Virus record (IMG/VR): IMGVR_UViG_3300034375_002671
Location: 1 to 33,354 of that record
Reading direction: 5' to 3' (one strand)
Source of the DNA: a virus
DNA length: 33,354 nucleotides
In this document: one piece after another, positions 1 to 19,293 of the stretch
How positions within the stretch are numbered: position 1 is the first letter of the stretch
Layout of the letters: each line of letters starts with the position of its first letter
Position numbers and translations under genes: made by a program
Notes under the pieces: generated by a model
What the model was told of the DNA's origin: nothing
Databases searched by the model: none
What the model saw: only the letters and a program-made list of their open reading frames with translations

Positions 1-102
1 AGATCCATCATTGTAAACAACCTCTTTAGCAAAACGTATTTGCTTAGGTGTTAGATGCTTGTCGTTCTTTCCTGATATATTTCCTGATGTTCCTTTTGGC
101 AT
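1..102 (-). CDS. terS: Terminase small subunit, N-terminal 34 residues (cut by the window edge)
   Basis: An ATG at 102 on the minus strand opens a frame of 34 codons that runs off the left edge. Residues 17-34 read HLTPKQIRFAKEVVYNDG, the N-terminal helix signature (LTPKQ..F..EY..D) of phage terminase small subunits of the Terminase_2 type. These bind the packaging site on phage DNA and recruit the large-subunit motor. The rest of the gene, and probably terL, lie outside the window to the left. It follows about 530 bp of non-coding repeat-rich DNA and a terminator, so it probably has its own promoter. No strong ribosome-binding site is visible. The family call rests on a short stretch, hence moderate confidence. 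Confidence 0.6.
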   Translation of the reverse strand, partial: MPKGTSGNISGKNDKHLTPKQIRFAKEVVYNDGS

Positions 103-143
103 CTGCGAAGTATATACCAAGGTAATAAAAAGTAACAAGTTCT

Positions 144-178: not shown

Positions 179-497
179 AGGTTAGCTCTAAACCCGCATT
201 CTTTCAACATTCTCAGCACTTTCTAACCTGACCTAACTTATGCAAAGTTAGACGGAAACCCTTATAGGACTTATATTTCTACCACTTCTAACCTGAAAAA
301 TATATTTTCTAGCTTTTTAGCGTATTCATGAAATCTTTTAGATATATTACAGGTGAGGTTAGGTTTTGTTATATAGGAATCAAAACATTGTTAATAAAAT
401 CAATAGCTTACGATCTAACCTTGCCAAAGTTAGAAGATTTTATTATTCAACATAATCAATAACATAGAGCTAACCTTTGATTCTTGTTTCAGGTTAG
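179..497. repeat. Array of CTAACCT heptamers in both orientations (iteron-like)
   Basis: Seven exact copies of CTAACCT or its complement AGGTTAG occur: plus orientation at 223-229, 288-294, 415-421 and 470-476; minus orientation at 179-185, 356-362 and 491-497. Three one-base variants (CTAACTT) occur at 233-239 (+), 245-251 (-) and 427-433 (-). Several pair into dyads: CTAACTT(233-239)/AAGTTAG(245-251) with a 5-nt spacer, and an imperfect 21-nt hairpin at 414-434. The 12-mer CTTTCTAACCTG at 219-230 recurs inverted at 490-501. Such density in 320 bp suggests binding sites for a phage protein. Confidence 0.75.
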
Positions 498-5737: not shown

Positions 5738-7483
5738 TTAGGGCATCAAGGTGAATATGTTTATCCTGTCCTGTTTACCTTTAACAGTGATCGAAGGTAG
5801 TACCGCTAGAGGGAAAGAACATGCTTTTGCTGTGGACTCTCCAATAACTATATCTTTACCTACCTCTTTGGTGCTGGATTCTAACCTGGCTGCTAAATTT
5901 ACCGTGTCACCTATAGCTGTGTAGTCAAACCTGGTTTCAGACCCCATGTTACCGACCACAGCTGGGCCTGTGTTTACGCCAATGCCAATCTCCACAGAAA
6001 TTTTTGAAGATTTAAACTGGTCTTGTATCTCTTTTGCGCACAACACAGCAGCTTCTTCGTGGTTCTCTAAGTCCAAGGGCGCATTAAATATCGCCATCAT
6101 TGCATCACCAATATACTTATCCACCATGCCATCGTACTTCTTAACTGTGTCTGATTGTATAGTCAGAGCTTCGTTCATAATCTTTGTTACTTCTTCTGGT
6201 TCCATAGTCTCACTCATAGCAGTAAAACCACGTACATCTGTAAACAAAAACGTACAATTCCGTCGTTCTCCGCCCAACTTCAATAGACTGGGATCAGACT
6301 GCAAAGCCTTTACCTGCCTCGGATCTAAGTAATGTTCGAATTGTTTTTTTATAAGCTGCCGTAGTTTGTATTGTTCTCTAAACCTTAAATAAAAGGTAAT
6401 GGTTGCTGTTATAAACTCAGCCATAAATGTCCAAGTTACATCGATCAATACACCTTGTTGTACTATGCTGTAGCCACCAAATAAAGTTAAGGCCATGGTA
6501 GACACAGCTAAACTTATCCCCAACGTTATCCCCAGAAAACTAATGAATGCCCACATCATGACTACACCTACTATTAGAGTTGCCAACTCCACAGCTAGGG
6601 AATAGTCAGGTATGTATGGGCTGTCTTGTATCAGTATGCTTTCTGCTAAAGCTGCTTGTATCTTGTGCGGTTCGAGTAGCCCTGCTGGTGTAGATAGTTG
6701 CGGCATCACCCCGTTAGCTGTCACTCCTACAATTACAAACTTATCTGCCACATCCATCTCTTGTAATGTGGTCGAAGGGGTATTCACGAAACTTATCCAC
6801 TTACGTCCTAAACTGTCTGTTTTGACTGGTGGAAGCCCTTTTACCCTGATTTCCTGTATACCATTATCATTCGTATTTATAACGTAGGTGTCAGCACCCG
6901 CTAATACTTTTAATACTTGTGTGCCAAATGCAGGAACCCAACCATCAGGAGTACGCATCAACAAAGGTAGTCTTCTGGTCAAACCATCTACATCAATCGG
7001 TGCAGAAGATATACCCTGGTAAGCACTGTTCCGTAATATTTCTACATTCTGTGTAGCCCCTTGCAGCATTACCCCACCGATATCATCACCCAGTATCACA
7101 GTCCCCGTTGTAGGTGGGTACTGTTGATTGTCTGTTTCAAACATAGCCAAGATACTTGGGTGCATACTTAGACTATTGGCAAACACTTCATCACCACCAA
7201 AACGATCTGGTTCGCTAAATGCTATAACGTATCCTACTCCCATAGCTCCGCGTTCTAGTAGCTGCATGTGTATCTCAGCCAGTCTTTCTCTAGGAAAAGG
7301 CCACCCACCTTCGTCCCTCACGTCTTCTTCTGTAATGTTTAGTATCGTAAAGTAACCAGAAGGCCCTTGGTCCTTGATCCATGAATCGAATACCTTGAGC
7401 TTTAGTATTTCTAAAGGTGTGAGCTGTAGCACCAAAGGTAAGCCGAGCAAAGCTATCAAACCAAGGAGTTGTAGTTTTTTCAT
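5738..7483 (-). CDS. CHASE2-domain class III adenylate cyclase, membrane sensor (581 aa)
   Basis: This enzyme should make cAMP from ATP in response to a periplasmic signal. An N-terminal membrane segment (5-25) precedes an extracytoplasmic CHASE2 domain (about 30-285), three membrane helices (about 295-370) and a cytoplasmic cyclase domain (405-580). Catalytic residues are complete: metal-binding D416 (FTDVRGFT) and D460 (YIGDAMMA), adenine-specifying K456 and T522 (FDYTAIGD), transition-state N529 and R533 (NLAAR). The Lys/Thr pair is the class IIIb adenylate type. Length and architecture match full bacterial CHASE2 cyclases. The start overlaps the FecR gene by 4 nt (ATGA). FecR-domain proteins beside CHASE2 cyclases also occur in bacteria. 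It appears intact. Confidence 0.93.
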   Translation of the reverse strand: MKKLQLLGLIALLGLPLVLQLTPLEILKLKVFDSWIKDQGPSGYFTILNITEEDVRDEGGWPFPRERLAEIHMQLLERGAMGVGYVIAFSEPDRFGGDEVFANSLSMHPSILAMFETDNQQYPPTTGTVILGDDIGGVMLQGATQNVEILRNSAYQGISSAPIDVDGLTRRLPLLMRTPDGWVPAFGTQVLKVLAGADTYVINTNDNGIQEIRVKGLPPVKTDSLGRKWISFVNTPSTTLQEMDVADKFVIVGVTANGVMPQLSTPAGLLEPHKIQAALAESILIQDSPYIPDYSLAVELATLIVGVVMMWAFISFLGITLGISLAVSTMALTLFGGYSIVQQGVLIDVTWTFMAEFITATITFYLRFREQYKLRQLIKKQFEHYLDPRQVKALQSDPSLLKLGGERRNCTFLFTDVRGFTAMSETMEPEEVTKIMNEALTIQSDTVKKYDGMVDKYIGDAMMAIFNAPLDLENHEEAAVLCAKEIQDQFKSSKISVEIGIGVNTGPAVVGNMGSETRFDYTAIGDTVNLAARLESSTKEVGKDIVIGESTAKACSFPLAVLPSITVKGKQDRINIFTLMP

Positions 7484-8595
7484 CCTGAACTTTGTTTAAT
7501 TGTTATTGTTGTAGAAGATCCACCGTTGATCTTAACCGTGTTAGATACACCATCCTGTATCAAGATAACAGTGTAGCTGTCCGATCCATCCAGGTTTAAC
7601 TTAGCGCTTTGACTAACTGTCCTGGTCAAACTAATAATTTGCCCCGATACGATAGTTGTTATCTGTGTGTCTTTGTCCTGACCTATCTCTGTCCCAGCTA
7701 TACGTATGCCTACTCCTCCTTGTTTGAGAGCATCTTCTTCTTTAGATAGTGCTAAGGCATCTAATACATTAAGTAGATCCTCTAAAAAGTTTACATCTAA
7801 ATAGTTAATGTCTAGCTCAGTAAACTCTAGCTCTGCTTCTGCATCAAGAAAGTCTTCGTTAAGGAAGTCTATGTCTAGGTCGTTAAAGTCCAGGTAGTCA
7901 GCAGAGGCTTGTGTCTGTGATTGCTCTAACGATTCTTGTGTTTGCTCAGGAGGATTTACAATGAGCATGTTGTCGATTAGATCCAATGTAATATCTAGTT
8001 CAACAGGTGCAGTAGGATTACTTTCGAATACAGATACAGTAGTTGCCTGGTAGGGTTTGTTTAACGTCACACTACCCATTCCTGTAGATACTATAATCTC
8101 ACCACTAGATATGCCATTCTCGTCTGGTAACAGTATGACAAGAGATCTACCCAGCTCGTCTACGGTACAGGTGAAATCCGTCCCTCTTATCGCTATGTTA
8201 GCTGTCGGTGTGCGTATTGATATGTTGTTCTTGTTGTTAAATTTACCTGTAATAAATCGCGCTGTGCCACTAGCAAACTTCAGGGCCATTTTAGATTTTG
8301 ACGGGTCAGGATCGTAAATGTATTCGTCTATGACTAACTTAGAATGTTCTGTTAGTTTGACTGTGGAGTCGTCTGAAAAGGTTATAGCAACTCTGCCAGC
8401 TTCTGTGCGGACATCATCCATTTGTTGTATATCAAATTGCAACTCAGCGCCGTAAGCCTTATCTCTAAGAACTTGTGCGTTGCCTCTAACTTCTGAAATA
8501 GAGCCTATCTCAACAGACGAATGAAGTCGTTGCGTCTGACTGAGTAACACAGACAGTACCGCTAGAGCCAACAGATGTAATTTTAAGCCAGTCAT
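7480..8595 (-). CDS. Exported FecR-domain protein with a curlin-like C-terminal repeat (371 aa)
   Basis: Residues 1-25 form a signal peptide (LHLLALAVLSVLL). A FecR domain spans about 60-150, with the typical core V.T..G...ITFSDDSTVKL and RTPTANIAIRGTDF. A very acidic Asp/Leu-rich linker follows (233-280). The last 30 residues contain ILIQDGVSNTVKI, a match to the curlin pattern QxGxxN. FecR domains are periplasmic sensor or structural modules; this protein is not next to a sigma factor, so iron-citrate regulation is unlikely. It overlaps the curlin-like gene by 86 nt and the cyclase by 4 nt. I infer a partner for the cyclase's CHASE2 domain or a fibre-associated subunit. Confidence 0.85.
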   Translation of the reverse strand: MTGLKLHLLALAVLSVLLSQTQRLHSSVEIGSISEVRGNAQVLRDKAYGAELQFDIQQMDDVRTEAGRVAITFSDDSTVKLTEHSKLVIDEYIYDPDPSKSKMALKFASGTARFITGKFNNKNNISIRTPTANIAIRGTDFTCTVDELGRSLVILLPDENGISSGEIIVSTGMGSVTLNKPYQATTVSVFESNPTAPVELDITLDLIDNMLIVNPPEQTQESLEQSQTQASADYLDFNDLDIDFLNEDFLDAEAELEFTELDINYLDVNFLEDLLNVLDALALSKEEDALKQGGVGIRIAGTEIGQDKDTQITTIVSGQIISLTRTVSQSAKLNLDGSDSYTVILIQDGVSNTVKINGGSSTTITIKQSSG

Positions 8596-9226
8596 TATCT
8601 GATGTAGACTCCTGATCTATGTTAAATGTTCTACTGCTTCCTGTTTGGTCTAGCCAAAAGTAGCCTCCTGCGTATCCGTCTCCATCGTAGGTGACAACAT
8701 TATCGTCTCCATCAATGTCCATGTAATTAGTGGCACCATCTACATCTATAGATGCAGTAATGTTATTACCACCACCTTGCACAGTCCAATCTAAATCTAA
8801 GCTTGCTGCTAGTGCAGTCATGGCATGATTCAAAGTCATGGTGTTGGTATTGCCTGTGACTTGTACGTTTACATTAGAACCATCAGCTCCAGTAGCGTTG
8901 GTCTCATCTGTACTCATATTGAACGTATTTGTGTCGCCAATAAATGAGAAGTAACCTGTGTAGTTATCTGCCCAGATGTCTCCTAAGAATTTATTGGTAT
9001 TACCTTTTTGTAATATATCTAAGGTCATAGTTGCACCATCGATATCTAATGCAGTCATAGAACCAGCAGCTGCGTCAGCTCCACCAATGATGTTGCCACT
9101 ACCCCCAACTTGTTCGATATCTAAATTAGATGTAGCACCTGACTGATCTATAAATATCTCGTTGTCAGCTGCATAAAAAGGTGTTGCTATTAAAAGCAAC
9201 AATATAAGTAGTCTATTTGTTCTCAC
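8510..9226 (-). CDS. Curlin-like (CsgA/CsgB-type) secreted amyloid repeat protein (238 aa)
   Basis: A signal peptide (RLLILLLLIATPFYA, cleavage near residue 19-20) precedes a protein low in charge and rich in Asn, Gly, Thr, Asp and Ile. Curlin-type turns recur: DQSGATSN (27-34), QVGGSGN (39-45), QKGNTN (73-78), GNTNT (125-129), QGGGNN (150-155) and QTGSS (194-198). The turn glycines from 75 onward (75, 97, 125, 151, 173, 196, 220) are 22-28 residues apart, as in a beta-solenoid. Two cysteines lie near the C-terminus (226, 238), which is unusual for curlin. It overlaps csgG by 14 nt and the FecR gene by 86 nt. No separate CsgA/CsgB pair is seen. Substrate of the CsgG pore is the likely role. 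Confidence 0.82.
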   Translation of the reverse strand: MRTNRLLILLLLIATPFYAADNEIFIDQSGATSNLDIEQVGGSGNIIGGADAAAGSMTALDIDGATMTLDILQKGNTNKFLGDIWADNYTGYFSFIGDTNTFNMSTDETNATGADGSNVNVQVTGNTNTMTLNHAMTALAASLDLDWTVQGGGNNITASIDVDGATNYMDIDGDDNVVTYDGDGYAGGYFWLDQTGSSRTFNIDQESTSDNDWLKITSVGSSGTVCVTQSDATTSFVC

Positions 9227-10025
9227 TTCTTTGCTCCCAATACCCTAGTTCTAACCCTTCGAGTATTGTTTCTAAGACCGCTGTTTCCACAGCAGCCTGT
9301 AATGCTATATTTACTGATTCATTTTCTACTATCCCGCTCTCAATTTCAACTAATTCAGTGTTGTTACTGTAGAACTTAAATACGTCTTGTGATATAGAAG
9401 CACTCAATACACTCTTGGTTACTAATACTTCTAACAAAACTTTACCTGTGCTCACTGAAACAGTGCGTAAGGAAACAGTAATACTGTCCTGCCTGTATTC
9501 TTTTGATGCACCTATACCAAGATACCTGGCCCCAGCTCCGCCACTCTTAACATTAGTTTCATAACCTATAACTCCACCTTGCATAAGAAGCCCTGCAAAC
9601 AATAAAGGTTTAAGCTTTTGTTTTTCTTCGAAATTTTCTCTGGTTGTACGTATGAGCTGTCGTTCTTTAGTCAGATCGTCTAGGCCTTTGCGCTCTACTA
9701 CATCAAAGAAGTTTGAATGTTTAAGCGCTCTTATTAAATAAGCATCGGGAGAGGAAGTAATAGCTGTACTAAAACTAGCGTACTGACTATTAGATCTACG
9801 TTGGCCTGTATTATCTTGAAAACTTTTTGCATAAACGGCAACGATAGGTTTTTTGACAGGGGGTCCAATGTCTTTAAGTCCTTGTACAATTAAAGAACTT
9901 ACTTCTGCAGGTTCAATGTCCCGCATTGGAGGTATACCATTGTCTAATGGGTCTACAATTAAAGCACAGCTAGAAACTAAAAGAACCGAGAGGAACAGTA
10001 ATTTCCGTTGTATTGCCTTCTTCAT
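9213..10025 (-). CDS. csgG: CsgG curli secretion pore lipoprotein (270 aa)
   Basis: A lipoprotein signal peptide ends in the lipobox LLVSSC with Cys20. The body aligns along its length with E. coli CsgG (277 aa): VAVY...QDNTGQ, SFSTAITSSP, ERKGLDDLTKER, and the hallmark GYETNVKSGGAGARYLGIGA, almost the same as the E. coli segment. In the family, nine subunits form an outer-membrane channel that exports unfolded curlin subunits. In the constriction loop the conserved Phe is kept (SF), but the E. coli Asn before it is Ser, the loop is one residue longer, and the Tyr is not obvious. The gene is nested between csgF (56-nt overlap) and the curlin-like gene (14-nt overlap). It is complete. Confidence 0.96.
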   Translation of the reverse strand: MKKAIQRKLLFLSVLLVSSCALIVDPLDNGIPPMRDIEPAEVSSLIVQGLKDIGPPVKKPIVAVYAKSFQDNTGQRRSNSQYASFSTAITSSPDAYLIRALKHSNFFDVVERKGLDDLTKERQLIRTTRENFEEKQKLKPLLFAGLLMQGGVIGYETNVKSGGAGARYLGIGASKEYRQDSITVSLRTVSVSTGKVLLEVLVTKSVLSASISQDVFKFYSNNTELVEIESGIVENESVNIALQAAVETAVLETILEGLELGYWEQRSENK

Positions 10026-10440
10026 CTGTAATTATTAAAGTTACCTTATCGTCTTCTACCCTATATTCTATGGTATTACCTTCTAATTCTAAAACACCAA
10101 AATCAGATGAGGACTCACCAAATAAATTATCTACCAGCTGTCTACTGAGCTGTGCATATATTCTACTCTCTAGGTTACGTATGAACCTAGCTAATGTTGT
10201 GTTCTCTGCTTCTCTTTCTAAGTCTTCTTGATAGGCTCTAATCTCTTCTCGTACAGCTTCTATCCTGTTGAACTCTTGATTTTCTATAGTTAGATAGTGA
10301 CTAGATGTATTCTGCCCTGAGAAACTAGGGCTTTTAAACTTGTGCGTCATTTCATCAGCTTGAACTGATAAAACAATAAACATAGTAAGTATGATAAAAG
10401 ATATAAACAATATTTCGTCAGGTCGTTTAGGAGCCATCAA
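9970..10440 (-). CDS. csgF: CsgF curli assembly factor (156 aa)
   Basis: A signal peptide (ILFISFIILTMFIVLSVQA) is predicted to be cut before D29. The mature N-terminus MTHKFKSPSFSG parallels E. coli MTFQFRNPNFGG, the part of CsgF known to sit inside the CsgG channel as a second constriction. A helix (ARFIRNLESRIYAQLSRQLV) and a C-terminal strand pair (TIEYRVEDDKVTLIITDEEG) follow, as in the family. At 156 residues it is slightly longer than E. coli CsgF because of an inserted charged helix (about 58-80). Start and upstream stop share ATGA; the 3' end overlaps csgG by 56 nt. Together with csgG this gives a complete pore pair. Confidence 0.92.
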   Translation of the reverse strand: MMAPKRPDEILFISFIILTMFIVLSVQADEMTHKFKSPSFSGQNTSSHYLTIENQEFNRIEAVREEIRAYQEDLEREAENTTLARFIRNLESRIYAQLSRQLVDNLFGESSSDFGVLELEGNTIEYRVEDDKVTLIITDEEGNTTEITVPLGSFSF

Positions 10441-13821: not shown

Positions 13822-15411
13822 ATGGAAGAAATCGCAAATAAATTTAAGCAAGTATTCTCAGGATTAGAGAGAGCTCACGGTATATATGAAATCACGGGAC
13901 AAAAGAACACCGCGAAAGGTGTTAAGAAAGACGGCAGAGGACGGACACTACAAGAGCCTTTGACGGTAGATCTTTGGGAGAGACATTTAAAAGGAGACCT
14001 GTCTATTGGTGTAATACCATTGACTGATGATGAGACTTGCAAATGGGGTTGTATAGACGTTGACGAATACCCCATAGATACAAATGAAATACTGCAAAGG
14101 ATAGAAGAAATGAATCTACCTTTGTTGCCGTGCATGACTAAATCAGGCGGAGTACATTTGTTTTTATTTACCAAGGAACCGATATCAGCGTTTAAGTTCC
14201 AATCTAAACTAGAGGAGATAGCAGCAGCTATGGGAAGAACAGGAGACGAGATCTTTCCTAAGCAATACGAGTGGTCTAAACAACTACCGAAAGAAAACCA
14301 GACAGGCAACTGGTTAAACATGCCTTACTTTGCAGGAGAAGACACAACAAGATACGCACTAAAACCTGATGGGGAAGCTGCGGACATAGAAGAATTTTTT
14401 GATTTAGTAGATAAAGTATCTATAACCGAAAGACAGTTAGATAGTTTTATAGCTGTAAAGAAAAGCAGAAAGAAACAGATTACTAAGCAAGGCAGTATGT
14501 GGGATGAGGCCCCACCTTGTTTAATACACATGAAACTTAACGGAATACCTGAGGGTATGCGTAACAATGCCTTACTTAATTATGGTGTGCTCTTACGCAA
14601 AGTGCATCCTGAAGGAGAGGAATGGAAAGACAAACTCCAGGAGATAAACAAAACAGTTTGCACAAAGGCTCTGTCTCACAGTGAGCTTAATACAATTATA
14701 CAAAGCTTAGAAAAATCAGAGTATAGATACCAATGCGGTAAACAACCTTTGGTAGATTTTTGTCAGAGTGGTATCTGCGTAACTAGAAGATATGGCATTG
14801 ATGCATCTGAGCGTGATCCTAACTTTGGTGGCTTGCGTAAGTATCTAACTGATCCACCGCTTTGGCATTTAGATGTAGACGGTAGAACAATTGTTTTAGA
14901 TACAAAGCAACTGCATAACTTCTCTATGTATCAACAAAGATGTATGGAGGTTCTTAATATATGTCCACCTGATGTAAAGAAAACAGATTGGGTAGCCAAG
15001 TTAAATGCTTTGCTACAAGACGTACAAGAAGTAGAAGTCCCTGCTGATATGACAAAGCAAGGGTTACTACAAGAAGCTATCTATGAATTCTGCAGACTGT
15101 CTGAGTCTTCTTCTAGATTATCTATCGCATCTAATGGTGTGTTTAGATACGAAGAGGACAAGACTAAGCAGTGGTGGTTTACAGGTAGAGATGCAGTGAT
15201 CTTTATCCAAGAGTTTAAGAAGATGCGACACATAAAAGAAGCAGAGGTATTTACTGAGCTTAAAAACATGGGAGCTACAAACATAGCTAAATACATCGAC
15301 AGGACTGTTGGTAACAAAAAGATTTGGATGCTAGACATATACGAGATAGATGAAGATGCTGTTGACTCTAGTGACTTTAAATCACAAAAGGAGCCTTTGG
15401 CATGGGAATAA
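13822..15411 (+). CDS. Archaeo-eukaryotic-type primase (AEP, TOTE-like) (529 aa)
   Basis: The N-terminal half has the AEP active-site motifs: CIDVDEYP with the metal-binding D79 and D81, MTKSGGVHLFLF with H112, and the later GNWLNMPYF strand. These fit primases of the TOTE/prim-pol group, which lay primers for the replicative polymerase. A middle segment (230-325) looks like a PriCT-type domain and carries C305, C314 and C319 in a C-x8-C-x4-C pattern followed by TRRYGI, a probable metal or Fe-S site. The C-terminal 200 residues may be a winged-helix or helicase-contact region. No Walker A motif is seen, so helicase activity comes from the separate UvrD-like gene. The ribosome-binding site is weak. 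Confidence 0.82.
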   Translation: MEEIANKFKQVFSGLERAHGIYEITGQKNTAKGVKKDGRGRTLQEPLTVDLWERHLKGDLSIGVIPLTDDETCKWGCIDVDEYPIDTNEILQRIEEMNLPLLPCMTKSGGVHLFLFTKEPISAFKFQSKLEEIAAAMGRTGDEIFPKQYEWSKQLPKENQTGNWLNMPYFAGEDTTRYALKPDGEAADIEEFFDLVDKVSITERQLDSFIAVKKSRKKQITKQGSMWDEAPPCLIHMKLNGIPEGMRNNALLNYGVLLRKVHPEGEEWKDKLQEINKTVCTKALSHSELNTIIQSLEKSEYRYQCGKQPLVDFCQSGICVTRRYGIDASERDPNFGGLRKYLTDPPLWHLDVDGRTIVLDTKQLHNFSMYQQRCMEVLNICPPDVKKTDWVAKLNALLQDVQEVEVPADMTKQGLLQEAIYEFCRLSESSSRLSIASNGVFRYEEDKTKQWWFTGRDAVIFIQEFKKMRHIKEAEVFTELKNMGATNIAKYIDRTVGNKKIWMLDIYEIDEDAVDSSDFKSQKEPLAWE

Positions 15412-15680
15412 GTAGAGAAGAAATTTCTGGGTACGTAGAAGAATTAGGTATAGATGGCATTTTGTTAGCAGATGGATTAGAGGATGCTTTTATAGGTGTG
15501 TCGTGTGGTTTTGGTCCGAGTAAAGCTGTGTATGACTGGGATAAATGCGTAGAAATATTTATGACTAGAGACAAAATGACCTACGAAGAAGCTGTTGAGT
15601 GGATAGACTTTAATGTAACAGGTGCTTATGTTGGAGAGCAAACACCAGAATTTATATTTTTATATGACAAACGTAACTAA
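15402..15680 (+). CDS. Small conserved protein (92 aa), function unknown
   Basis: The protein has an acidic N-terminal half (EEISGYVEELGIDGILLADG) and a C-terminal pattern MTYEEAVEWIDFNVTGAYVG that I recognise from small proteins in many phages and some bacterial islands, without a known role. It overlaps the primase by 10 nt and the helicase start by 17 nt, so it is part of the replication operon. There is no membrane segment, signal peptide or catalytic motif. It may be an accessory to primase or helicase; this is inference from position only. Confidence 0.7.
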   Translation: MGISREEISGYVEELGIDGILLADGLEDAFIGVSCGFGPSKAVYDWDKCVEIFMTRDKMTYEEAVEWIDFNVTGAYVGEQTPEFIFLYDKRN

Positions 15681-17211
15681 ATACTTTGGGCCTCCTGGAA
15701 CAGGAAAGACTACAACTCTTATGAACATTATAGAGAAGAGTCTTGATGAAGGCGTTGCACCTGAGAGGATAGCGTTTATATCTTTTTCTGTAAAAGCAGC
15801 TGAGGAAGGAAAGAACAGAGCGAATATACGATTGGGTCTGGGCTTTGATGAGATGCCTTACTTCTGTACGAGCCATGCTTTCTGCAAAAGAATTATGGGT
15901 ATATCACAAGTCATGGGTGGTAGAGATGTATTTGATTTCTTAGAAGATTATGAGTTTAACCTTACTAAGAAGTATGGAACAAATGCGAGAGGCCTGAGGT
16001 CCGTGGTCCAAGATCCCTACTTCGATATCATAGAACGTGCGAAGGCTAACTGTTGCACATTAAAAGAAGAGCGATTGTCTTTAGAGAAAGAACAACGTAA
16101 AGGAGTTGTAGTCCACATGCTAGAACCTATAGCAGAAGCTTGGGAGTCGTTTAGACTTTCTAGAGTACCTGTTGTCTATTCGTTTGCTGACATGATAAAC
16201 AAATTCCTAGACGATGGTACGGCTCCTGAATTAGATCTATTAATTGTTGATGAAGCTCAAGACTTAGCAGAACTAAACTGGAGGCTTGTAGAAAAGTTAG
16301 CTTTGAATGCTAAAAAGACTTACATAGCTGGAGACGATGATCAGGCTATTTACGAATGGAATGGAGCAAAGCCACAGCGTTTTGTAAATTACGTAGGCGA
16401 AAGCATTGTGTTAGATCAGTCCTATCGTATACCTGGCAAAGTACATCCTATAGCTGAGCGTATATCTAAGCGCATAATTTCTAGAGAACCTAAGACTTAT
16501 AAACCTAGAGAAGAATCAGGCACAGTCAGTAAGGTCAGTTCAGTAGAACTATTGCCTTTGCGGGAGGGTAACTGGCTCGTGCTTGCTTCTTGTGACTATA
16601 TGTTGACGGATGCATCTAAGGGATACAACGTCAGAAAGTATTTGATAGACAATGGTTTTGCTTTTGCTCACAACAACTTTCGTTATATACCTAGAAAGAT
16701 GAGCATGGCTATACAGATTTGGGAGAGACTAAACAATAAAGAAGAGATCACGTTATCAGAGCTTGATGATCTTTATGGGTATTTAGGTAAGACAGGAGTG
16801 AAGAGAGGATTCATCACACAGGTTTCACAGGCTCCGAACCAAGGGCAGTCGTTATCACTGCAACAGATTATAGATAACTATGGACTCAAACCAGAATGTC
16901 TTGGCCAAGAATGGCAGACTGTGTTTGATAAAACGATAGACGTAGAAAGAAGAAGTTTTATAGAGAAAGCATTAAAGAACAAAGAAGATTTATTAGGAGA
17001 ACCACGCATTGTCATTTCGACTATACATCAGGCAAAAGGTGGAGAAGCGGAGAACGTAGCTGTGTACTTAGACTTATCTAAATCACAGAAGCGGACTTCT
17101 ATGTTACAACCCGATGGGCTACACAGACAGTTCTATGTTGCGATTACACGTACAATAGAAAACCTATATCTGATACAGGCCCAAGATGATTATTACAGGT
17201 ACGTTATATGA
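15664..17211 (+). CDS. UvrD/Rep-like superfamily 1 DNA helicase (515 aa)
   Basis: SF1A motifs are complete: Walker A GPPGTGKTT (9-17), Walker B IVDEAQD (194-200), motif III GDDDQAIYEWNGA (223-235), motif IV DQSYRIPG (251-258), motif V ISTIHQAKGGEAENV (451-465) and motif VI FYVAITR (490-496). The start at ATG 15664 places the Walker A loop at the usual distance from the N-terminus; an upstream ATG at 15622 would add 14 residues that read through the preceding gene. At 515 residues it is compact compared with about 670-720 for UvrD or Rep. It probably unwinds DNA for the family A polymerase; no DnaB-type helicase is seen in this window. The stop overlaps the polymerase start (ATGA). Confidence 0.93.
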   Translation: MTNVTKYFGPPGTGKTTTLMNIIEKSLDEGVAPERIAFISFSVKAAEEGKNRANIRLGLGFDEMPYFCTSHAFCKRIMGISQVMGGRDVFDFLEDYEFNLTKKYGTNARGLRSVVQDPYFDIIERAKANCCTLKEERLSLEKEQRKGVVVHMLEPIAEAWESFRLSRVPVVYSFADMINKFLDDGTAPELDLLIVDEAQDLAELNWRLVEKLALNAKKTYIAGDDDQAIYEWNGAKPQRFVNYVGESIVLDQSYRIPGKVHPIAERISKRIISREPKTYKPREESGTVSKVSSVELLPLREGNWLVLASCDYMLTDASKGYNVRKYLIDNGFAFAHNNFRYIPRKMSMAIQIWERLNNKEEITLSELDDLYGYLGKTGVKRGFITQVSQAPNQGQSLSLQQIIDNYGLKPECLGQEWQTVFDKTIDVERRSFIEKALKNKEDLLGEPRIVISTIHQAKGGEAENVAVYLDLSKSQKRTSMLQPDGLHRQFYVAITRTIENLYLIQAQDDYYRYVI

Positions 17212-19076
17212 GTTTTGTTTACAAGCCCCCAACGGAGTGGATACCACCCGATAGTTTTCCAACAGAGAAATTATGTCAGGCAACAGAGATTGCCATTGAC
17301 CTTGAGACTAGAGATCCAAGTTTAAAAGAACTAGGACCAGGTTACATTAGAGGTGATGGCGAGGTCGTCGGTATTTCTTTTGCAATAGACGGTTACGAAG
17401 ATTACTTTCCGTTTGCACATGAGCAAGGATTTAACTTTTCTAAAAAGAAAGTTATAGAGTTTACTAAAAAGATCTGCGCTACAGATAGTGACAAGATATT
17501 TCACAACTCTAGTTATGATGTTGGTTGGTTGACACGAGAAGGTGTGCCTATCAATGGCAGGATTATCGATACGATGGTCGTTGCTCCTTTGATTGACGAG
17601 AACCAATACTGGTATTCATTGAATGCATTGGGTCGCGAATACATAAATGAAGGCAAGACTGAGGGAGAGCTAAATGCTGCTGCGGAGGAGTGGGGACTGG
17701 ATCCTAAGGCTGAGATGTGGCGGTTACCGTCAGCTTATGTGGGTACTTATGCAACACAGGACGCCGCCCTCACGCTTAAATTATGGAATCACTTTAAGAT
17801 TTTATTAGAAGAACAAAACCTATGGAACGTGTTTGATTTAGAAATGCGAGTGCTTCCTGTCATTCTTGCGATGAAACAAAAGGGTGTTCGTGTTGATACA
17901 GACAGAGCTCAGTCATTAAAGAAGCAGCTCATTAAAAGAGAGAAAGATATCGTTCAACAAATTAAGGATGAGTCAGGTGTTCCAGAACTACAACTGTGGG
18001 CAGCCAACTCATTAGCAAAAGTATTTGATGCAATGAACCTTACGTATCTTAGGACACCAACAGGAATGCCTAGTTTTACAAAAGCTTTCCTGGAGAACCA
18101 CTCTCATCCTATAGCTAATTTGATACGCGAAGCTAGAGAAGTAAACAAGACACACAGCACGTTTATTGATTCCATACTAAAACATGCACATAACGGAAGG
18201 ATACATGCAGAGATACGTCAGCTCAAAGGTGAGTCAGGCGGTACAGTCACAGGTCGGTTGTCCATGAGCAATCCGAACTTACAACAAGTGCCTGCACGTA
18301 ATAAAGAGATTGGCCCTTTGATTAGATCTTTGTTCTTACCAGAAGAAGGAGAGCTGTGGTGCTCTGCTGACTTCTCACAACAAGAACCTAGAATACTGAC
18401 ACACTATGCTAGTAGATCTAAGTACGACGGAGCAGATGCTATTGCTGAGGCGTACCATGCTGGTGATGCAGACTTTCATCAAGAGGTAGCTAACTTGGTA
18501 GATATTGACAGGAAGACAGCAAAGACAATAGGACTTGGCATCATGTATGGCATGGGCAAAGGTAAGTTAGCAGATCAGCTAGGCGTTACTGTAGACGAGG
18601 CATCAGAGATCTTAGCTAAGTTTAATACCTATGCACCGTTTGTCAGGCAGTTAGCTGACTCGGTTATGCGTAGTGCAAACTCAAAAGGTTACATCAAAAC
18701 GATACTAGGGAGGCGCTGTCACTTTGATATGTGGGAGCCTTTGAAGTATGGAACAGGTAGACCGATGAAACACAAAGAAGCCGTGCATGAATATAACGGC
18801 GAGATCAAAAGAGCGTTTGTCTACAAAGCGTTAAATAAACTAATTCAAGGTTCAGCAGCAGATATGACTAAGCAGGCCATGGTCCATTGTTATGAGGCGG
18901 GTTACCTTCCGCTTTTGCAAGTCCATGACGAGCTGGTGTTCTCTATAAAGTCTGACGAAGATGTAGAAAACATCTGTCGTTTAATGGAGGAAGCTGTAGC
19001 TTTGGATGTCCCAAACAAAGTTGATGCTGAGATTGGAAAGAATTGGGGCGACTCAATGGAAGCTAAGAATAATTGA
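17208..19076 (+). CDS. Family A DNA polymerase with 3'-5' exonuclease (622 aa)
   Basis: The replicative polymerase. The exonuclease domain holds D31/E33 (AIDLETRD), N100/D104 (HNSSYD) and Y181/D185 (YATQD). The polymerase domain has motif A with D388 (CSADFSQQEPR), motif B RKTAKTIGLGIMYG (435-448) and motif C VHDELV with D574. The position equal to E. coli Pol I F762 is Leu (L443), a type frequent in environmental phage polymerases and proposed by others to relate to phage lifestyle. There is no 5'-3' exonuclease domain, and the length fits phage PolA enzymes. The start overlaps the helicase stop by 4 nt. The protein looks intact. Confidence 0.96.
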   Translation: MSFVYKPPTEWIPPDSFPTEKLCQATEIAIDLETRDPSLKELGPGYIRGDGEVVGISFAIDGYEDYFPFAHEQGFNFSKKKVIEFTKKICATDSDKIFHNSSYDVGWLTREGVPINGRIIDTMVVAPLIDENQYWYSLNALGREYINEGKTEGELNAAAEEWGLDPKAEMWRLPSAYVGTYATQDAALTLKLWNHFKILLEEQNLWNVFDLEMRVLPVILAMKQKGVRVDTDRAQSLKKQLIKREKDIVQQIKDESGVPELQLWAANSLAKVFDAMNLTYLRTPTGMPSFTKAFLENHSHPIANLIREAREVNKTHSTFIDSILKHAHNGRIHAEIRQLKGESGGTVTGRLSMSNPNLQQVPARNKEIGPLIRSLFLPEEGELWCSADFSQQEPRILTHYASRSKYDGADAIAEAYHAGDADFHQEVANLVDIDRKTAKTIGLGIMYGMGKGKLADQLGVTVDEASEILAKFNTYAPFVRQLADSVMRSANSKGYIKTILGRRCHFDMWEPLKYGTGRPMKHKEAVHEYNGEIKRAFVYKALNKLIQGSAADMTKQAMVHCYEAGYLPLLQVHDELVFSIKSDEDVENICRLMEEAVALDVPNKVDAEIGKNWGDSMEAKNN

Positions 19077-19103
19077 GATATATCTTAGATTGTAATGTAT
19101 AAT
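19073..19103 (+). promoter_or_regulatory. Candidate promoter before the small RHH-like gene
   Basis: A perfect TATAAT lies at 19098-19103, with TTGAGA at 19073-19078 as a possible -35 at a long 19-nt spacing. It lies in the only gap between the polymerase and the next gene, about 20 nt before the chosen ATG at 19123. The -35 is only partly outside the polymerase gene. It might give separate expression of the small regulator-like gene and the nuclease. Confidence 0.3.
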
Positions 19104-19122
19104 GTTATCTACAGGAGTAAAA

Positions 19123-19293
19123 ATGGATACAACTAAATGGAAAAGCGTAGCGATACGTAAAGAGATTGTGGAAGCGGCTGCTATTATCGGTGAAAAAACT
19201 GAAAGGCCCACCAGTAATGTGTTTGCGTATGCGGTAAAAAGATTACAAGATGATCTTGAAAGCGGACGCTTGAACGACGTACCTAAGGTTTAA
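19123..19293 (+). CDS. Small protein, possible ribbon-helix-helix DNA binder (56 aa)
   Basis: The start chosen is ATG 19123, preceded by AGGAG (19113-19117) at 5 nt; an upstream ATG at 19102 would include this site in the coding part. The pattern KWKSVAIRKEIVEAAAIIGE, with a short strand then two helices (RPTSNVFAYAVKRLQDDL), resembles ribbon-helix-helix proteins such as Arc-type repressors and antitoxins. No toxin gene is adjacent. It may regulate a phage promoter, for instance the symmetric site at 12298-12351, but that is conjecture. The gene lies 2 nt before the nuclease gene. Confidence 0.55.
   Translation: MDTTKWKSVAIRKEIVEAAAIIGEKTERPTSNVFAYAVKRLQDDLESGRLNDVPKV

Follow-up and report, generated by a model that had tools for sequence, protein, structure and literature searches.

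The window, that is, the whole stretch of DNA analysed here, is a linear IMG/VR virus record of 33,354 bp whose left end truncates terS, a gene of the minus strand (Table 1). Next to this gene lie ten exact matches to CTAACYT (seven CTAACCT and three CTAACTT) in both orientations, which start, in the direction of terS, at offsets 0+, 21-, 64+, 76-, 135+, 203-, 246+, 258-, 268- and 312+. A preliminary description of this DNA had counted seven exact and three near copies; these are the same ten elements, and all of them match CTAACYT exactly. The inverted 12-mer that it had placed at 219-230 and 490-501 is present and belongs to a 17-nt pair that is 94% complementary. The strip is indeed devoid of genes, with no ORF of at least 60 aa between the start of terS (around position 102) and an ORF at 881. 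Its GC content is about 24-36%, as against about 41-50% from position 851 onward. Clustered short repeats in AT-rich non-coding DNA, as in iteron-type origins, are therefore found here (10 copies in 319 bp).

Over the whole window, CTAACYT occurs 27 times where 14.9 matches are expected, and the 17 matches outside the array are at chance level. When the window was simulated 200 times with a Markov-1 model, the densest 319-bp stretch never held more than three matches, whereas the real array holds ten. The same picture emerges from two longer relatives (G003 and G007), in which the array window contains 10-11 matches and every other 320-bp window at most two. The genome-wide count proposed in the preliminary description thus gives a background density everywhere but in the array. 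GC skew tracks the strand of the genes and does not mark any origin. A DNA similarity search against cultivated phages gave no meaningful match. The array pattern was not found in bacterial genomes, which therefore provide no prophage, satellite or host clue.

Table 1. Positions of the array, its landmarks and the genes discussed in the text, in window coordinates
Feature	Position	Strand	Remarks
terS, N-terminal 34 codons (Terminase_2 small subunit)	1..102	-	cut by contig start
Extended -10-like TTGGTATATA	98..120	-	TTGGTATATA at 111-120; conserved; by inspection of the sequence only
Heptamer array	179..497	.	ten CTAACYT, orientation alternating
Element 10, CTAACCT	179..185	-	
Element 9, CTAACCT	223..229	+	
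Element 8, CTAACTT	233..239	+	dyad with element 7, spacer 5 bp
Element 7, CTAACTT	245..251	-	
Landmark CCTATAAGGGTTTCC	254..268	-	immediately ahead of element 7; a similar stretch is kept in all motif classes A-F
Element 6, CTAACCT	288..294	+	
Element 5, CTAACCT	356..362	-	
Second landmark CCTATATAAC	368..377	-	just before element 5
IHF consensus AATCAATAGCTTA (WATCARNNNNTTR)	398..410	+	perfect match
Element 4, CTAACCT	415..421	+	dyad with element 3, spacer 5 bp
Element 3, CTAACTT	427..433	-	
Second IHF-like site (AATCAATAACATA)	454..466	+	one mismatch in the window, perfect in most relatives
Element 2, CTAACCT	470..476	+	
Element 1, CTAACCT	491..497	-	
AEP-TOTE + PriCT_1 primase, proposed array reader	13822..15411	+	C-terminal aa ~381-515 predicted winged helix
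UvrD-like helicase	15628..17211	+	adjoins primase gene; diverges with primase in some contrasts
Family A DNA polymerase (polA)	17208..19076	+	divergence yardstick
63-aa ribbon-helix-helix (RHH)-like protein	19102..19293	+	after polA

Conservation of the array and turnover of its word

A pattern built from three adjacent elements was used to find the arrays of relatives and matched 35 viral contigs. Most of these carry the ten elements at base-pair-identical offsets, with terS next to them. The heptamer columns are 97.1% conserved, as against 88.3% for the other columns, and 87% of them are invariant, as against 51% of the others. Upstream of the array, insertions and small ORFs vary among relatives whereas the 320-bp unit is constant. 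In the longer relatives, the dyad CTAACYT-N5-ARGTTAG is confined to this array; one of them, G007 (59 kb), has ends that overlap within terS and is a near-complete genome. A lack of conservation in close relatives had been named as an observation that would speak against the element; conservation is instead extreme, which supports a functional conserved cis-element adjoining terS.

The surroundings of the unit are less constant. Five to six 21-bp direct repeats of the TCTTTTAACGTCTTTTCTTCC type adjoin the array at positions 508-642; they are present in L009 and L010 and missing from L011-L015, and, being absent from most relatives, were rejected as a part of the conserved unit. Most relatives have a low-complexity linker of the GGACCAAGGGAC type ahead of the array (e.g. 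L014:4954-5030, L104, L112, L121, L128 and L051), and it is around this linker that new ORFs have entered the interval separating the array from the upstream gene. The 84,189-bp contig G003 (L053-L057) is apparently chimeric, as its sequence beyond about 54.5 kb is that of a second related phage, which has polymerase, primase-like and helicase genes of its own.

In more distant relatives, which were gathered by a TerS search, the array is still found near terS and its word is replaced wholesale. The word is CTAACYT in class A, to which CTAAC and CTCAC elements mixed (class B), CTCACYT (class D), CGCACCTC with CACATAACC (class C), CCTCAGT (class E) and TCTAATGT (class F) can be compared. In a clade related to the pelagiphage HTVC027P, the words include TGTGGAA, GGTGACC, GTGTCGA, GTAACAC, TTGAGACA, ATTGTAG, AAGTAGAA, CTGTCA, GTTACAA and others, some G-clade words having been assigned partly by eye. 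The start of terS and the array are some 900-1200 bp apart in this HTVC027P-like clade, the array being downstream, and many members have a weak array or none. In classes A, B and D, the positions of the elements and the flanking landmarks are kept despite the word change, and the mosaic arrays of class B look like intermediates of a word switch.

The checked arrays of classes A, B and D also share a pair of IHF consensus sites, equally oriented and at a distance of 56 bp; the background in the remainder of the window is 0.09 per kb. The consensus also occurs in several arrays of the other clade and was not found in the arrays of classes C, E and F. The CCTATAAGGGTTTCC landmark may be a candidate unwinding or cleavage site. 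The sequence TTGGTATATA, about 9 bp ahead of the terS ATG, is a candidate terS promoter that would be nearly leaderless. A landmark conserved near G-clade arrays (L209, L236, L212 and others), ATACCAACG / CGTTGGTAT, resembles this TTGGTATATA sequence of the window class and could represent either the -10 of a promoter or an element of an origin.

Proteins that may read the array

The primase encoded about 13 kb from the array matches PF22548 (AEP-TOTE, the best match) and PF08708; PriCT_1 is under its cut-off in the primase of the window and above it in that of G033. An AF2 model of its tail (aa 360-529) is a confident winged helix (pLDDT around 90). VIA-align returned many winged-helix matches to this tail with Z of 6-7.5, none outstanding and the top one being an oriT-binding protein, which indicates a fold in common rather than kinship. 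With Foldseek alone, the tail had no significant match, and a PDB sequence search with the primase did not retrieve any ColE2 Rep chain. The predicted architecture, AEP, PriCT-1 and a C-terminal winged helix or HTH, is that of a ColE2-type initiator primase. According to a review, ColE2 Rep unwinds DNA by means of PriCT-1 and HTH, and origin recognition by the C-terminal WH domains of initiator primases has been proposed (PMC5862659).

For each of 12 regions, divergence was divided by polA divergence over pairs of motif classes. For primase aa 381-515, the median ratio is 1.18 for same-word pairs (n=6, maximum 1.64) and 2.39 for different-word pairs (n=11, minimum 1.52; p=0.00016), in a set that is small and post hoc, with few same-word classes and with class pairs that share genomes. 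The identity of the repeats therefore changes together with the candidate initiator, as in an origin. With the polA yardstick, the C-terminal part of the primase is the only region that diverges consistently with word change: a PDDEXK nuclease (p=0.46) and SNF2 (p=0.29) do not, gp33, gp34 and TerL have no significant link to the word, and the helicase is borderline (p=0.05). As the helicase partly varies with the primase, the two are not fully separated. Individual contrasts point the same way. G033 and G034 have primases that are 55% and helicases that are 59% identical, as against 76-95% for most other shared genes. The primase C-terminus of G041 and G057 is 55% identical to that of G049, which has another word, whereas HTVC027P and G050 share one word and have primases that are 93% identical. 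Residues that are fixed in class A and differ in class D make up 16% of the primase C-terminus, as against 6% of polA and 7% of TerS. Four copies of TGCGTAA within the primase gene were also considered and are not conserved.

The position of the array points instead to packaging. If it were a packaging-initiation site of the pac or cosB type, several copies of TerS, whose HTH is SF6- and SPP1-like, would bind the heptamers and the DNA would be bent by IHF, as it is in lambda cosB, with TerL cutting nearby, perhaps at the CCTATAAGGGTTTCC landmark. Repeats adjacent to terS are indeed what is seen, since the array lies directly 5' of the gene throughout classes A-F and is no more than about 1 kb away from it in the other clade, and the HTH model of TerS (166-167 aa where complete, in relatives) matches the DNA-binding domain of SF6 TerS, 4zc3, with a TM of 0.86 over the target. 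The pac site of SPP1, which extends over the terS promoters and the gene start, has repeats, and the SF6 domain has a weak preference for TTAGGTT (PMC4737164); in lambda cosB, R sites flank an IHF site and their phage-specific sequences are read by TerS (PMC4669245). TerS was accordingly favoured first as the reader, as HTH divergence was higher between different words when the highly conserved TerS C-terminal core served as yardstick (p=0.0035). This signal vanishes with polA (p=0.46), a yardstick adopted after counterexamples had been seen. The TerS of G033 and G034 are 97% identical and their words are GTTACAA and CGTAGAA; G041/G057 and G049 have an identical TerS HTH and the words TTGAGACA and TTGTAGCA; conversely, L212/L233 and HTVC027P/G050 keep the same word despite a diverged TerS HTH. 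Contig ends do not indicate a genome end either, as they scatter around the array without any single-base pile-up, although they are a poor guide, since conserved patches break assemblies anyway. A packaging site is the main rival of an origin and is considered clearly less likely. One observation would have no explanation if TerS is not the reader: its residue 43, with which helix 2 of the HTH ends, is Ala, Asp and Glu in the CTAAC, mixed and CTCAC classes, respectively (A, B and D; e.g. L011, L104 and L119), and is constant within all same-word pairs of that set.

Other functions are less probable still. An operator or enhancer for the promoter of terS or of a neighbouring gene, recognised by a phage regulator whose sites differ between lineages, would fit the extended -10-like sequence conserved ahead of terS and the TATA-like landmarks that are also found in G-clade arrays. 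Ten sites across 320 bp would be unusual for a single gene, though, the G-clade array precedes a different gene and no regulator that covaries with the word came to light. Apart from TerS, the RHH-like protein is the best DNA-binding candidate; it was rejected as reader because its presumed DNA-contact strand is unchanged across classes A, D, E and F. Regulation of this kind thus appears improbable. Lambda attP and P1 parS also combine short repeats with IHF sites. Among the ORFs inspected in the near-complete G007, there is no recognisable integrase, ParA or ParB, and inspection of the ORFs listed for G003 and G007 likewise revealed no integrase; an integration or partition site is very improbable. 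The same holds for a structured RNA or a cruciform, in which adjacent inverted heptamers would form hairpins, as the preliminary description had suggested. On paper, five adjacent pairs of elements are inverted and could pair. In the class B mosaic L104, however, all five pairs consist of one CTAAC and one CTCAC element, which breaks the stems instead of compensating within them, and in many class A arrays element 2 is AAGTTAG facing CTAACCT. An Rfam search (E up to 10) gave weak matches only, all far under the family cut-offs. Since potential hairpins are disrupted in mosaic arrays, the elements agree better with protein sites than with an RNA.

A putative replication origin

Packaging, an origin and a late-regulator array had all been put forward for this strip. 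Location alone favours packaging, covariation favours replication, and a late regulator is without specific support. The reading retained here, with a rough probability of 0.5, is that the array is an IHF-assisted replication origin read by the primase. The process might be viewed as follows. The strip of about 320 bp would be an iteron-type initiator-binding region, whose ten heptamers the winged-helix domain at the C-terminus of the AEP-PriCT primase would bind. Bends introduced by host IHF at its two sites, which are 56 bp apart, would bring the scattered, oppositely oriented elements together in a single complex. Opening would then take place in the AT-rich DNA that surrounds the conserved CCTATA landmarks, and the primase, the helicase and polymerase A would begin synthesis. 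A shift in the DNA specificity of the primase would entail the rewriting of all elements together. Points against such an origin include its distance from the primase gene in the window and its vicinity to terS in both clades, a placement that an origin would not require.

The candidate shares with ColE2-type plasmid origins a reader made of an AEP primase, PriCT-1 and a C-terminal winged helix or HTH, and an origin specificity proposed to sit in the C-terminus (PMC5862659). It differs from them in its many short, dispersed heptamers in both orientations, its IHF sites and its location in a 59-kb phage; moreover, the Pfam match of the candidate reader is AEP-TOTE, and its likeness to ColE2 Rep is one of domain architecture. 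In lambda cosB (R3-IHF-R2-R1), short sites likewise surround an IHF bend adjoining terS and their specificity varies between relatives (PMC4669245), but there are three of them rather than ten, whereas no cohesive end was identified here and word change is not tied to TerS. The pac sites of SPP1 and SF6 involve the same TerS family, and their repeats occupy the promoter and the start of terS (PMC4737164); SPP1, however, has few repeats, which are direct, and their binding by SF6 TerS shows little specificity. The origins of lambdoid phages and iteron plasmids carry lineage-specific repeats that change with the initiator, as here. Their iterons are longer, mostly direct and located in or near the initiator gene, unlike the 7-mers of mixed orientation found far from the primase gene.

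It is conceivable, though somewhat more doubtful than the origin itself, that these arrays represent a new type of phage origin: heptamers at fixed spacing and in both orientations, arranged around a pair of IHF bends and recognised by the winged-helix tail of an AEP-PriCT primase, with a word repeatedly rewritten in concert, faster than TerS and polymerase diverge, in a group of marine phages that is widespread and to which the cultivated HTVC027P is related. About twenty natural pairs of a DNA word and a candidate reader protein are now available. They make recognition by an initiator-primase, or by its rival, the small terminase, directly testable, as well as the switching of specificity of a whole array. 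Base recognition by the small terminase is described as unexplained in a recent review (PMC9611059). Speculatively, the rapid turnover of words might reflect conflict with satellites or the exclusion of related phages.

Elsewhere in the window, the minus strand carries at 5738-10440 a block that encodes a CHASE2-adenylate/guanylate cyclase, FecR, CsgG and CsgF (curli secretion). This is an unusual cargo for a phage, and similar ORFs were seen by inspection in G003 and G007.
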